Origin: Kocuria palustris
Lineage (GTDB): Bacteria > Actinomycetota > Actinomycetes > Actinomycetales > Micrococcaceae
DNA length: 64,000 bases
Direction: 5' to 3'
Assembly: GCF_007666205.1 (NCBI RefSeq)
Contig: NZ_VDOR01000006.1
Location: 1-64,000 of the forward strand
Below are positions 40,590 through 45,607 of the stretch, one piece after another. The position numbers were made by a program, and so were the translations under genes. The notes below the pieces were generated by a model. The model did no database searches. It had not been told where the DNA came from and was given only the letters and a program-made list of their open reading frames with translations. The first letter of the stretch is position 1, and each line of letters begins with the position of its first letter.

Positions 40590-41678
40590 ATGATGTCCGC
40601 ACGCTCCTCCGTCCTGAGCGATCTCGAGGTCCCGCTCATCGCCGCGCCCATGGCCGGAGGACCGTCGAGCCCCGAGCTGGCGATCGAGGTGTCGCGCGCC
40701 GGCGGGCTGGGAATGCTCGCGGGCGGATACCGGACCGCCGCAGCGCTGGCCGAGCAGATCGCAGCGGTGCGCCAGGGGCTGCGCGATACCGAACGTCTGT
40801 TCGGCGTCAACGTCTTCGCCCCCGAGCCGGTGCCCACCGACCCCGAGGCGCTCGCCGGGTTCCGGGAGCAGTGGGTCCGCGCCGTCACCGCGCTGGACGA
40901 GCAGCTGGGGGCGCAGGCCGCGCAGCGTCCGATCCCGGAGTGCACCGACGACGGCTGGGACGAGAAGATCGCGCTGCTCGTGGCCGATCCCGTCCCGGTC
41001 GTGAGCTTCACCTTCGGGCTGCCGCCGACGGCCGCGATCCGGGCGCTGCAGGAGGCCGGGACCGCGGTGCTGCTGTCGGTGTCCTCGGCGGAGGAGGCGG
41101 TGCGCGCCGCCTCGTGCGATCCCGACGCACTCGTCCTGCAGGGCGCCGACGCCGGCGGGCACCGCTTCACCCTGGCCCAGGACGCCGTTCCGGGAGAGAC
41201 GCCGCTGTTGGAGCTGCTGGGCGATGCGCTCTCGGCGCTGTCGTCGACCCGTCCCGAGCTGCCCGTGATCGCCGCCGGCGGGATCGGCTCGCCCGCCGAG
41301 GCTGCTCGGGTGCTCGCCGCCGGAGCCGCCGCCGTGCAGGTGGGGACCCTGTTCGCGGTCGCCGACGAGGCCGGCACGAGCCGGACCCACCGCGAGGCGC
41401 TGCTGGCCGCCGCGGCGGACCCGTCGTCGTCGCGCACGACGGTGACCCGGGCCTTCTCGGGACGTCCCGCCCGTGCCCTGGCCACCGCGTACACGGAGGC
41501 GATGGCCGAGCACGAGATCGCCGGGTATCCGCAGATCAACACGATGTCCTCGCCCATCCGCAAGGCGGCCGCCGAGGCCGGCAGGACCGAGCTGGTGCAT
41601 CTGTGGGCGGGCACGGGCTTCGCGGCCTGCCGCCCGAGGCCCGCGGCGGAGATCGTGGCCGAGTTCCGCGGCCTCTGA
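40590..41678 (+). CDS. Nitronate monooxygenase-family FMN protein
   Basis: A 362-residue 2-nitropropane-dioxygenase/nitronate-monooxygenase-like TIM barrel. The opening PLIAAPMAGGPSSPELAIEVSRAGGLGMLAGG and the FMN-binding segments (VLQGADAGGHR, VIAAGGIGSPAEAARVLAAGAAAVQVGTLF) are present. It may oxidise toxic alkyl nitronates, but class II members with other functions look similar. A -10 TAGAGT lies at 40531-40536, and AGGAAGG precedes the ATG at 40590 (an adjacent ATG at 40593 is equally possible). The accessory islet begins downstream. Confidence 0.88.
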   Translation: MMSARSSVLSDLEVPLIAAPMAGGPSSPELAIEVSRAGGLGMLAGGYRTAAALAEQIAAVRQGLRDTERLFGVNVFAPEPVPTDPEALAGFREQWVRAVTALDEQLGAQAAQRPIPECTDDGWDEKIALLVADPVPVVSFTFGLPPTAAIRALQEAGTAVLLSVSSAEEAVRAASCDPDALVLQGADAGGHRFTLAQDAVPGETPLLELLGDALSALSSTRPELPVIAAGGIGSPAEAARVLAAGAAAVQVGTLFAVADEAGTSRTHREALLAAAADPSSSRTTVTRAFSGRPARALATAYTEAMAEHEIAGYPQINTMSSPIRKAAAEAGRTELVHLWAGTGFAACRPRPAAEIVAEFRGL

Positions 41679-42044
41679 GGGGCCTGTGCCTGCGTGCCTT
41701 CCGCCTGCCCCGCCGCGCTTGCCGCCCTCGACCCGCCCTTTCCGCCCCCGATCTCCTTGCCCTCGCCTTTTCCGCGCTCCCCTTTCCCGCGAGCGGCCGC
41801 TACTTCACTTCTCTCCTCGCGAGTGGCCGATTCTTCACCTCTCTGCTCGCGAGCGGCCGATTCCTCACTGCTTCGCGGCTGAAACGGTGACGAAGCGGCC
41901 ACTCGCGGCCGATGGGGTGAGGAATCGGCCTGTCGATGCAAGTGAGCAGGATCCAGAAGGGGCGGTCACTGTGGGGAGCCGGGGAATCGCGGCATCGGGC
42001 CGGCGTCTCGGCGGCGGAAGGTGCCTGCTGGCACGGAGGATACG
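41679..42044. other. Non-coding region left of the accessory islet
   Basis: 366 bp without a recognised gene. The first 110 bases are pyrimidine-rich. The repeat array at 41791-41934 follows, then about 110 bases of plain sequence leading to the GGAGG of the small ORF at 42045. Confidence 0.5.
41791..41934. repeat. Repeat array A: five 30-bp units, three direct then two inverted
   Basis: Three tandem units start at 41791, 41821 and 41851 (each GAGYGGCCG..., two of three followed by ATTCYTCAC). Two inverted units (reverse complements of 41875-41904 and 41905-41934) follow, again with 30-bp spacing. The inner units overlap by six bases, so the centre can fold as a hairpin with a loop containing GCGGCTGAAAC. 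The unit consensus is GASYGGCCGATTCCTCACC plus a variable tail. Array B at 43380-43493 is built from the same unit in the opposite loop orientation. Confidence 0.85.
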
Positions 42045-42185
42045 ATGCCGCAGCACCCGCGCCGGCCGGATGAGATCACCGACGTGCTGAACCGCACCGG
42101 ATGGACGACGACGGCGGCGATCCGTCGCGAGCCCGTGCCCGCGGAGCATCCGCAGGGCTTCGTGGCGGCTCGTCGACGCGACTGA
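42045..42185 (+). CDS. Possible 46-residue protein, unrecognised
   Basis: An ATG with a strong GGAGG at 5-6 bases upstream opens a 46-codon frame (MPQHPRRPDEITDVLN...) ending in ARRRD and TGA. It is basic, contains no membrane segment or signal, and could be a small DNA-binding or antitoxin-like protein, or a degenerate start of a longer gene. It lies inside the repeat-flanked islet, convergent with the nuclease gene. No homologue is recalled. Confidence 0.4.
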   Translation: MPQHPRRPDEITDVLNRTGWTTTAAIRREPVPAEHPQGFVAARRRD

Positions 42186-42233
42186 TCCGGTCGCCCGGTC
42201 GGCCGCCCCTCCGTCGTCCTGCCGCCCCCGAGA

Positions 42234-43232
42234 TCAGCCGGTGCGACCGAGGCGGTCGCTGCGAGCGGCCCGGAGAACGAGGGCGACTGCGCGCGGCACA
42301 CGCTGCCCGTCGACGGGCTCGGACTCCACGAGGTCACGTGCCGTGAGCCGGATCTCGATCCACCCGCTGCCAAGAGTCGCGCGCTGACGTCGCACATCGC
42401 GCTCGCGCTGACCCTGCCCGTCGTGGTGGGCGCCGTCGTACTGCAGGCTGATGCGCAGCCCCGGGTCGGCCAGATCGGGGTGCACGGCGCAGCCGTCCGC
42501 GCTCCTCAGCTCGAGATCGGTGCGGAAGCCGCGCAGGCCGTGGTCCTCGAGCAGCAGCCGCAGCCTGGTCTCCGGCTCCGAATCGACACCGACGCGTGCG
42601 CGTTCCAGGGCCCGGCGCACTCGTCGCGTCCCCCGGGTGCCGGTCAGCTGACGAAGGTCGTCGCGGACCTGCGCGAGGCTGCGCAGGGCGGGCAGGCCCG
42701 CGCGGATCCCGTGCCGGTGCTCGCAGATCACCCCGTCGACCGCCGCAATGAGCTCAATGTCGCTGAGCCGCCCGGCGATGTCCACGAGAGTCCGCGTCGG
42801 CCCGGTCAGCAGGGCGCCGTGCGGACCGGTCGTCAGCAGCAGCGGATTCGTGGCCCGATGCCCGACCAGGCCCGCGCGCTTCACCCTGGTCTCGGATTCC
42901 GCTCCCCGGATGTGCGTGACGTGGAGGGGCCACGCGCGCTCGAGCCGACGGGGCAGCCGGAACCCCCACAGCAGGGCCGCAGACTGATGGCTGATCGCGT
43001 GATCGGGCATGGCCAGGCGCTGGGCGTGCACGAGGCGGCTGAGCTCGTCGTACGCGCTCGGCCCGGACGACGCCCGCGGCCGTGCGGAATCCGGCGGCGT
43101 CCAGAGGCCCGAGACGATGCGCTCGTAGTGGGGGTGTCGCAGCTGCCGGGAGCTCAGACCCGCCGACATCGCCTCGCCGCGCGTGAAGACGCGGTCGGCA
43201 AGAGCCTCGGGGGTGTGGTGGCGCTGCGGCAT
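42234..43232 (-). CDS. AbiEi-like N-terminus fused to a DUF559/Vsr-like nuclease domain
   Basis: A 332-residue protein of a type common in actinobacteria. Residues about 7-50 resemble the winged-helix AbiEi antitoxin domain (ALADRVFTRGEAMSAGLSSRQLRHPHYERIVSGLW). A middle region carries RTLVDIAGRLSDIELIAAVDGVI. The C-terminus (about 217-300) is a PD-(D/E)xK-type endonuclease fold: Glu219/Glu221, Asp253 in HPDLAD, then SLQYDGAHH, where Gln264 replaces the more usual Glu before YDG. The ATG at 43232 was chosen because family-like sequence starts there. It stands alone between repeat arrays A and B. Its function is unknown; DNA cleavage or regulation is inferred from the folds. Confidence 0.78.
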   Translation of the reverse strand: MPQRHHTPEALADRVFTRGEAMSAGLSSRQLRHPHYERIVSGLWTPPDSARPRASSGPSAYDELSRLVHAQRLAMPDHAISHQSAALLWGFRLPRRLERAWPLHVTHIRGAESETRVKRAGLVGHRATNPLLLTTGPHGALLTGPTRTLVDIAGRLSDIELIAAVDGVICEHRHGIRAGLPALRSLAQVRDDLRQLTGTRGTRRVRRALERARVGVDSEPETRLRLLLEDHGLRGFRTDLELRSADGCAVHPDLADPGLRISLQYDGAHHDGQGQRERDVRRQRATLGSGWIEIRLTARDLVESEPVDGQRVPRAVALVLRAARSDRLGRTG

Positions 43233-43379
43233 GCGGACACGATGCGCGTCATATCGACCACCGCCGTCCGCCGGGTCTCGTCGGGGAGCGCGGCTCCCGC
43301 GCGTGCGTCGTCGACTCGTCTGTGGAGCCTCCGAGCCGGGGCCCTTGTGTGTCGCTTGCGCCCACGACGTCGGCGCATC

Positions 43380-43493
43380 GAGCGGCCGAAATATCACTGC
43401 TCACCCCGCGACCGGCCGATTCCTCACCGTTTCAGCGGCGAATCGGTGAGGAATCGGCCGGTCGCGGGGGGTGGGGTGAGGAATCGGCCGGTC
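43380..43493. repeat. Repeat array B: four 30-bp units, two direct then two inverted
   Basis: Direct units start at 43380 and 43410; inverted units are the reverse complements of 43434-43463 and 43464-43493. The inner pair overlaps by six bases and forms a perfect 22-bp stem (43408-43429 with 43444-43465) around a 14-nt loop containing TTTCAGCGGCGAAT. The units match those of array A (GACCGGCCGATTCCTCACC), and the loop sequence is the reverse complement of that in array A, so the two arrays flank the nuclease gene as inverted copies. Confidence 0.88.
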
Positions 43494-43516
43494 GCGGGAG
43501 GAGGGGCGGCGGGAAG

Positions 43517-43526
43517 CCCCCCCCCC
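43517..43526. repeat. Homopolymer run of 10 C
   Basis: Ten consecutive C lie between array B and the typA promoter, about 60 bp upstream of the -10. Could be slippage-prone or a boundary mark of the islet. Confidence 0.6.
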
Positions 43527-43585
43527 GGCGGGCTGCAGGCGTGTGAGGTCCGCGACTCGCAGCGGGAGGGCTTGCGCCCGCGCGC

Positions 43586-43591
43586 TAGACT
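43586..43591 (+). promoter_or_regulatory. Candidate -10 of typA
   Basis: TAGACT lies 114 bases before the typA ATG, giving a leader of about 108 bases. No good -35 at 17 bp is seen. Confidence 0.4.
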
Positions 43592-43705
43592 CCACGACGG
43601 ACTTCCGCGACCCTCGTCGCATCCCGCGCGGCACCGGCCGCAACCGAGCGCCGTCCTGGCAGCAGGGCGGCCGCACGCCATCGTCTGAAGAGAGACCGCA
43701 CTCGT

Positions 43706-45607
43706 ATGAGCACTGCCCAGCGCAACGACCTCCGCAACGTCGCGATCGTGGCCCACGTCGACCACGGCAAGACCACGATCGTGGACGCCATGCTCCGGCA
43801 GACGAACACGTTCGCCGAGCACGGCGAGGTCGCCGATCGCGTCATGGACTCGGGCGACCTCGAGCGCGAGAAGGGCATCACGATCCTCGCCAAGAACACC
43901 ACCGTGTTCTACGAGGGGCCGTCGGCCGACGGCGAGGTCATCACGATCAACGTGATCGACACCCCGGGCCACGCGGACTTCGGCGGCGAGGTCGAGCGCG
44001 GCCTGTCCATGGTCGACGGCGTCGTGCTGCTCGTGGACGCCTCGGAGGGCCCGCTGCCGCAGACCCGCTTCGTGCTGCGCAAGGCCCTCGAGGCCAAGCT
44101 CCCGGTGATCGTGGTCGTCAACAAGATCGACCGGCCCGACGCCCGCGCCGAGGAGGTCGTCTCCGAGACGATGGATCTGTTGCTGGGCCTGGCCTCGGAC
44201 ATCGCCGAGGACTACCCGGAGATGGACCTGGACGCCGTGCTGGACGTGCCGGTGGTCTACGCCTCGGGCAAGGCCGGCCGTGCCGATACCGAGTTCCCCG
44301 GCGACGGCCAGCTGCCCGCCAGCGAGGACCTCGAGCCGCTGTTCAAGACGATCCTGGAGCACATCCCGGCGCCGTCGTACGAGGACGACGGGGTGCTGCA
44401 GGCCCACGTCACCAACCTCGACGCCTCCCCGTTCCTGGGGCGCCTGGCCCTGCTGCGCATCTTCTCGGGCACGCTCAAGAAGGGCCAGACCGTGGCGTGG
44501 GCGCGCAAGGACGGCTCGCTCAAGAACGTGCGCATCTCCGAGCTGCTGGCCACCAAGGGCCTGGACCGCGTCCCGGCCGAGTCGGCCGGCCCCGGCGAGA
44601 TCGTGGCCGTCGCGGGCATCGAGGACATCACGATCGGCGAGACGCTGACCGATCCGGAGAACCCCAAGCCGCTGCCGGTCATCACGGTCGACGACCCCGC
44701 GATCTCCATGACCATCGGCATCAACACCTCGCCGATGGCCGGCCGCGTCAAGAACGCCAAGGTCACCGCCCGCCAGGTCAAGGACCGCCTGGACAAGGAG
44801 CTCGTGGGCAACGTGTCGCTGCGCGTGCTGCCGACCGAGCGCCCCGACGCCTGGGAGGTCCAGGGCCGCGGCGAGCTCGCCCTGTCGATCCTGGTGGAGC
44901 AGATGCGCCGCGAGGGCTTCGAGCTGACCGTGGGCAAGCCCCAGGTGGTCACCCGCGAGATCGACGGCAAGGTCCACGAGCCGGTCGAGCGCATGACGAT
45001 CGACACCCCGGACGAGTTCCTGGGCGCGATCACGCAGATCATGGCCACCCGCAAGGGCCGCATGGAGACCATGACGAACCACGGCACCGGCTGGGTGCGC
45101 ATGGAGTTCGTCGTCCCGGCCCGCGGCCTGATCGGCTTCCGCACGACGTTCATGACCGAGACCCGCGGCGCGGGCATCGCGTCGTCGTACTCCGACGGCT
45201 TCGAGCCGTGGTTCGGCCCGATCGAGTACCGCACCAACGGCTCGATGATCTCCGACCGCGCCGGCGTGGCGACCCCGTTCGCCATGATCAACCTCCAGGA
45301 GCGCGGCACGATCTTCGTGAAGCCCACCGAGGAGGTCTACGAGGGCATGGTCATCGGCGAGAACGCGCGCGCCGATGACATGGAGGTGAACATCACCAAG
45401 GAGAAGAAGCTCACCAACATGCGCTCGGCCGCCGCCGACAACTTCGAGAACCTCACCCCGCCGCGGCAGATGACGCTGGAGGAGTGCCTCGAGTTCGCCC
45501 GCGAGGACGAGTGCGTCGAGGTCACCCCGGAGGCCATCCGCATCCGGAAGGTGGTCCTGGACTCCAACGAGCGCGTGAAGCAGGCGCGCCAGCGCAATCG
45601 TGCGTGA
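43706..45607 (+). CDS. typA: Ribosome-associated GTPase TypA/BipA
   Basis: A 633-residue translational GTPase of the EF-G family that binds ribosomes and helps large-subunit assembly under stress. G-motifs are intact: AHVDHGKTT (G1), the EREKGITI switch, DTPGHADF (G3) and NKIDRP (G4). The later domains show the EF-G-like [21 protein letters not shown] and the BipA-specific C-terminal region with [18 protein letters not shown]-like sequence. Length is slightly above the usual 605-620. The ATG at 43706 is the conserved start. Its stop overlaps the mshB start by 8 bases. Confidence 0.97.

Follow-up and report, generated by a model that had tools for sequence, protein, structure and literature searches.

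Inverted palindromic repeat arrays around an AbiEi-Vsr-like nuclease gene: a possible association, little noticed so far, of a nuclease with a DNA repeat that spreads

Background

Why does a single nuclease gene lie between two inverted arrays of the same short repeat? The question is raised by an islet in a 64,000-nucleotide stretch of the Kocuria palustris genome (hereafter the window), for which the original prediction had considered three possibilities: a non-autonomous element, mobile or selfish; repeats of the REP kind; and sites recognised by the enclosed protein. Analysis of the islet, of the rest of the genome (G000), of 27 genomes of the genus and of nuclease homologues sampled across the order suggests that a nuclease and a DNA repeat that spreads are partners, an association that has drawn little notice; the pairing of such palindromes with an AbiEi/DUF559-like nuclease was undescribed in the titles or abstract openings of the open-licence papers searched.

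Results and discussion

Structure of arrays A and B

Array A (Table 1) has + units starting at 41791, 41821 and 41851 facing - units starting at 41886 and 41916, and array B has + units starting at 43380 and 43410 facing - units starting at 43445 and 43475, in agreement with the arrays of five and four units in 30-bp phase that had been described; the outermost left units are weak, with 4 and 5 mismatches to GASYGGCCGATTCCTCACC. Direct and inverted units meet head to head at the centre of both arrays, where the innermost pair, taken as 30-mers, overlaps by the predicted 6 bases (GCGGCT in A, AGCGGC in B). The loop of A had been read as the reverse complement of the loop of B, which is nearly so: 14 of the 16 bases at the centre of A are identical to the reverse complement of the centre of B, but the identity is not exact. 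Array B is separated by 147 bp from the start of the nuclease gene and by 212 bp from that of the putative typA gene, and lies upstream of both.

Table 1. Features of the islet and its flanks, in window coordinates.
Feature	Position	Strand	Description
Flanking gene, putative nitronate monooxygenase	40590..41678	+	name from the original prediction
Array A	41791..41934	.	five 19-bp units in 30-bp phase, + + + then - -
Central 54-bp palindrome of array A	41851..41904	.	19 + 16 + 19
Class I methyltransferase remnant	42045..42185	+	C-terminal 46 codons; the possible small ORF of the original prediction
Nuclease gene	42234..43232	-	332 aa; AbiEi-like N-terminal part (residues 15-165), Vsr/DUF559/MTES_1575-like C-terminal part
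Array B	43380..43493	.	four units, + + then - -
Central 54-bp palindrome of array B	43410..43463	.	24-bp arms, one mismatch near the loop
Flanking gene, putative typA	43706..45607	+	name from the original prediction; 95% identical between G000 and its sister species G021

The large hairpin expected of each array is supported by RNA folding of both strands, with predicted energies of -83.2 to -96.0 kcal/mol and z-scores of -6.2 (+) and -7.6 (-) for A and -11.0 (+) and -11.2 (-) for B; 0 of 200 shuffles folded as well in each of the four cases. A search of RNA families returned four matches, all under the gathering score and all to generic long hairpins.

The islet and its two genes

By gene calls the nuclease is the only intact gene between the arrays, as had been noted, and no toxin gene was seen there, but the accompanying small ORF proves to be the decayed tail of a methyltransferase. 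In the sister species, G021, arrays A and B occupy the same places, the methyltransferase is intact (229 aa; L078:3775-4464) and the nuclease is broken into pieces in three frames, a reciprocal decay in which each species has lost the gene that the other retains. Because remains of both genes are present in both species, their ancestor had methyltransferase and nuclease together between the arrays, and a cassette swap in which the methyltransferase replaced the nuclease in G021 was rejected on the same ground. Twenty other loci of the genus upstream of typA, searched by BLAST, showed no monooxygenase, methyltransferase or nuclease, and in one of them, G039, typA directly adjoins the neighbouring permease gene.

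The methyltransferase is of the class I Methyltransf_25 type by Pfam and is not evidently a DNA methyltransferase, for which reason restriction-modification was discarded as a likely reading of the islet. In PADLOC it matches mad2 (E 1.4e-17) and, weakly, MTase_II.

The nuclease family

The PADLOC profile of AbiEi matches 12 of 13 members of the nuclease family, including the window protein (E 1.5e-5); there is no AbiEi model among the Pfam matches and no AbiEi chain among the five PDB profile matches (E up to 10). The C-terminal half matches MTES_1575 in nine and DUF559 in four of the 13 members by Pfam, PvuRts1I in the PDB (E 2.5e-5) and, weakly, Vsr (E 0.093), and the window protein taken alone scores below the Pfam nuclease-domain cut-off (16.7 vs 38.2 bits); we regard it as a putative nuclease domain of the Vsr/DUF559-like (PD-(D/E)XK) kind on the basis of these domain matches. 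The other PDB matches, to IcmE (E 0.0013) and a weak one, look unrelated. The alignment of the 13 members (A2) contains invariant D, E, H, Q and R columns; a single-sequence AlphaFold model of the window protein (pLDDT 38.9) was too poor to use. Of 109 genomes sampled across the order, 72 have homologues with E <= 1e-25; some of these homologues, but not all, are bracketed by palindromes in the manner described below. One genome, G001, has four nuclease matches.

Palindromes bracketing nuclease homologues

Nuclease loci were scored as bracketed when a long hairpin (stem of at least 17, at most 2 mismatches, loop of at most 40) stood on each side of the gene and the pair shared an 11-mer. Sequence-sharing palindromes bracket 10 of 30 homologue loci in a first set and 9 of 26 in a later set drawn from the order as a whole (11 of 29 including three repeats), compared with 0 of 529 and 0 of 348 control genes of 600-1500 bp, or 0 of 877; five of these 877 have hairpins on both sides, none sharing sequence. 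The Fisher p of 2.5e-25 (19/56 loci vs 0/874 controls) should not be taken literally because the nuclease loci are related to one another. By the same criterion 37 of the 56 loci are not bracketed, and at the window locus the hairpin on side A does not pass the strict test.

The loci tested were up to 30 per search, a subset of the matches, together with L173. The first set was taken without the duplicate loci of the window and L043, the pseudogene loci of G021 and L056, which lies at a contig edge; the later set was taken without the window and, for the count of 26, also without the three loci seen before, and slightly larger distances were allowed in it (530/60 bp vs 500/30). The 529 controls comprise 47 + 38 + 44 + 51 genes from the genus and 349 from other named Actinobacteria, and the 348 comprise 177 from G015, 168 from G120 and 3 from G114.

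The palindromes differ in sequence from gene to gene, to the extent that three nuclease genes of G001 have three different palindromes. Across 23 loci, palindrome similarity follows protein identity (Pearson 0.51, a value reached in 0 of 5000 permutations; Spearman 0.24, p 0.0002), a co-variation driven by a few close pairs. The proposed link between the arrays and the enclosed gene family is supported in this form: differently spelled palindromes recur around homologues, and palindrome and nuclease vary together.

Dispersal of the repeat in the window genome

The unit is present in G000 in numbers far beyond chance, with 87 matches (40 + 47) at three or fewer mismatches compared with 6 for the reversed pattern. 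The genome contains 18 complete arrays of one design and two halves at contig ends (C3 and C4); the innermost unit starts are 35 bases apart in 18 of 18. By gene calls, 17 of the 18 array centres are extragenic. With 18 arrays genome-wide, the arrays were dismissed as markers of the nuclease islet alone. The notion that this islet by itself is the unit is not supported either: the majority of arrays are found where other genes end, 299 bp separate array A from the stop codon of the nuclease, and the two arrays once enclosed a second gene. A REP-like family, also among the original suggestions, agrees with the 18 dispersed arrays and with the finding that 5 of the 18 sites are common to the sister species.

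Among 54 same-strand steps between units, 44 are exactly 30 bases and eight fall at 39-42. The ten that differ from 30 are 31, 39, 40, 41 (five times), 42 and 53; the majority exceed 30 by roughly one helical turn, by eye through doubling of an 11-bp tail, and they may reflect the helical phasing of a bound protein.

The single array within a coding sequence (C11:433106-433219, L017) lies in frame in the linker of a gene that we take to encode a MocR-type regulator. The 30-bp period corresponds to exactly 10 codons and adds repeats of 10 residues to the protein.

Distribution and turnover

The array centre was found in 2 of 27 genomes of the genus, G000 and G021. The genus was searched with model R1, 150 first-look candidates being scored per genome, and matches in G015, G017 and G022 were rejected as window-type arrays after inspection by eye identified them as other hairpins. 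Long hairpins of other sequences, lying between or behind genes and having no T-runs by eye, were observed in G015, G022, G017 and G039 (L133, L134, L135, L164).

The repeat family of the window occurs at 12 places in G021. An array is found there at 5 of the 18 G000 sites (A, B, C1:61071, C3:829 and C11:213554) and a one-unit relic at one, the MocR-type gene; at the other 12 sites both flanking genes are present and no array was detected in G021 (one possible relic by eye). Two of these 12 sites have hairpins of another sequence in G021, again with a 35-base step. Neither target-site duplications nor clean empty sites could be discerned in the intergenic DNA, which is too diverged for junctions to be placed. 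The two inner arms of an array resemble each other less in G021, where the nuclease is decayed (mean identity 0.784 over 9 arrays), than in G000 (0.892 over 18).

By eye, most unit tails end in CGC in G000 and in ATC in G021. G021 also has a second palindrome family, GAGTGGCCNCGTGGTGTGC, with 11 matches and none for the control (L188, L153, L076, L080); it has the 35-base step, in places the 30-bp phasing, and a GAGTGGCC start in common with the window family.

Dispersal in other lineages

The bracketing palindrome is dispersed in three lineages besides that of the window. Ten palindromes of one family were seen in G001 (21 unit matches, control 0), two of which bracket the nuclease gene at C22:189270; G028 and G049, the two genomes searched for their unit, have 23 and 9 matches (controls 0); and a 400-kb sample of G114 has 14 matches at 7 places (control 0), with near-identical copies and, at one place, two units 30 bp apart. 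Such dispersal is not general: in 400-kb samples of G015 and G120 the unit of the respective genome matched just once (1 and 3 mismatches), which we regard as background because the G015 unit also matched once in the G120 sample. G018 has palindromes of the G001 type (22 unit matches, control 1) and no nuclease between them in the stretches fetched.

A probable REPIN-like arrangement with a different enzyme

We consider it probable that arrays A and B are dispersed palindromic repeats cognate to the nuclease that they enclose, in an arrangement resembling that of REPINs and RAYTs but with a different enzyme. According to the available parts of the reports, REPINs are hairpin-forming inverted pairs that are dispersed in intergenic space, often between convergent genes, and have a low-copy enzyme gene flanked by copies (PMC3116915, PMC8049555, PMC3733652). 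The window family likewise consists of inverted hairpin doublets in many mostly extragenic copies, is dispersed with turnover of its sites, and belongs with an enzyme gene, here AbiEi-Vsr-like, that co-varies with its palindromes and, in the 19 bracketed loci, is flanked by family copies in a compact layout that recurs from locus to locus. The closer match of inner arms in G000 than in G021, where the nuclease is decayed, also speaks for the cognate reading. It differs in its AbiEi-Vsr/DUF559-like nuclease, in its 30-bp-phased tandem arrays and, by reading, in having no GTAG or CGTC tag in the unit consensus. A family driven by a RAYT was rejected because the Y1 (HUH) transposase (PF01797) was found in 0 of 27 genomes of the genus, the same profile having matches in 5 of 14 control genomes, and since its enzyme differs from RAYT the window system is not filed as a member of REPIN/RAYT. 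CGTC-tagged REPs, which the available part of one report says lack a dedicated transposase (PMC3733652), resemble it as dispersed, mostly intergenic palindromes without a RAYT, and differ in that here a nuclease gene is bracketed by copies of the family.

Other resemblances are to antitoxins and to endonucleases. In the available part of PMC7319586, AbiEi is described as binding two 23-bp inverted repeats 3 bp apart near its own gene, and Rv2827c as binding inverted-repeat pairs 13 bp apart, sizes and spacings close to the arms and gaps of the window arrays. Unlike the AbiE antitoxins, whose profile its N-terminal part matches, the window protein is joined to a nuclease-like C-terminus, has alongside it between the arrays only a decayed methyltransferase instead of a visible toxin gene, and has palindromes on both sides and dispersed. 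The weak C-terminal matches liken it to Vsr, DUF559, MTES_1575 and PvuRts1I endonucleases, from which the islet differs in the Methyltransf_25 type of its methyltransferase.

The unit that we propose consists of a palindrome, a short 5' leader, the nuclease gene and a second palindrome, accompanied by solo palindromes that are scattered mainly at the 3' ends of genes and in G000 have grown into 30-bp-phased arrays; at these gene ends the palindromes probably have a second role as RNA hairpins working in both directions. The AbiEi-like N-terminal part would recognise inverted repeats of about 20-24 bp, as AbiEi antitoxins do theirs; the C-terminal part would nick or cut at or near them; and copies of the palindromes would arise elsewhere through repair. 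In addition, the nuclease gene may be autoregulated through its 5' palindrome.

More tentatively, and with doubt outweighing confidence, we suggest that such AbiEi-Vsr-like nucleases could form a distinct palindrome-spreading class, widespread in the actinobacterial order, in which each enzyme recognises and cuts its own palindromes, drives their copying to gene 3' ends and co-evolves with them in each lineage. If true, the REPIN/RAYT arrangement would have been invented a second time, independently, with an antitoxin-type DNA-binding domain and a restriction-type nuclease as its components. It would give a role to the large AbiEi/DUF559-like gene family and could explain species-specific hairpin families at gene ends; for the spread of dispersed palindromes without a RAYT, a nuclease that co-varies with the palindrome is a concrete and testable candidate enzyme.

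Operators, terminators and recombination sites

Operator and terminator roles may be real side functions of the palindromes, and they are also the main rivals to the cognate-nuclease reading. It is rather unlikely, in our estimate, that nothing here is mobile and that an AbiEi-type regulator-nuclease simply binds palindromes to control its own gene, the dispersed copies titrating the protein or regulating other genes. AbiEi antitoxins do autoregulate through inverted repeats of about 23 bp, as the available part of PMC7319586 describes, and the position of the 5' palindrome suits an operator: at the 19 bracketed loci, searched within 650 bp, it lies 51-197 bp upstream of the start codon in 18 and 462 bp in one (median 84). 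An operator does not account for the second palindrome at the stop codon, which at these loci lies from -37 to +86 of the stop (median 6) and overlaps it in some, nor for the placement of most dispersed copies in the window genome at 3' ends rather than promoters. Site turnover between the sister species is fast, and near-identical copies stand at several places in G114, both of which also argue against this reading.

We judge it distinctly unlikely that the arrays are hairpins of the host lineage, bidirectional terminators or mRNA 3'-end hairpins, between two of which the nuclease gene simply happens to sit. Several observations favour this reading. Gene calls place 11 of 16 classified arrays between convergent genes, 3 between neighbours transcribed from the same strand and 2 between divergent starts (B and C60:59076), compared with 10 convergent among 83 other gaps of at least 60 bp in the same loci (p 7e-6); counting C33:224305, which lies between converging genes as read from the gene calls, 12 of 18 are convergent. 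The strong predicted folds on both strands agree with such a role, and so do the unrelated long hairpins that sit between convergent genes elsewhere in the genus and the hairpins of another sequence that the sister species has at two of the same sites.

The arms of the arrays point the same way. Inner arms compared at variable positions match better within an array than between arrays, both in G000 (0.757 vs 0.640, p 0.00045) and in G021 (0.625 vs 0.505, p 0.03), and arm-pair cells changed on both sides number 32 compared with 16.3 in shuffles (0 of 500 as high), the number of pairs with such changes being unremarkable (8 vs 6.4, reached in 81 of 500 shuffles). Neighbouring - units are more alike within an array than between arrays (0.792 vs 0.686, p 0.0021); neighbouring + units (0.586 vs 0.577) are not, and outer units compared across an array (0.625 vs 0.606) are not. 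Template-switch correction can homogenise the arms of a palindrome, and because it could yield the same pattern, covariation of the arms is no proof of selection on RNA and was set aside as such.

Host hairpins do not predict matching, gene-specific palindromes at both ends of the nuclease gene (seen in 19 of 56 loci and at 0 of 877 control genes), nor three different palindromes at three nuclease genes of one genome, G001. A scan of 41500-43900 for terminator-like sites found two, neither at A nor at B, which despite their strong hairpins lack the form of an intrinsic terminator (a GC-rich hairpin followed by a T-run); and of the other arrays that fit this reading poorly, two separate divergently transcribed genes and a third is part of a coding linker.

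Very unlikely is a history in which palindromes came first and a nuclease cassette recombined into them by homology, the arrays being hot spots for gene gain, for this would suit the methyltransferase that shared the window islet and a 145-aa ORF found between array copies at C3/C4, but would lead us to expect neither palindrome sequences that track nuclease similarity nor one compact geometry in several families of the order. At the C3/C4 site (C3:1-912 and C4:1-110; L012, L014) the two array copies around the ORF are near-identical and, by eye, part of a neighbouring gene end is duplicated; the corresponding site in G021 has one array and lacks the ORF, and the arrangement looks like a merodiploid produced by recombination at the array.
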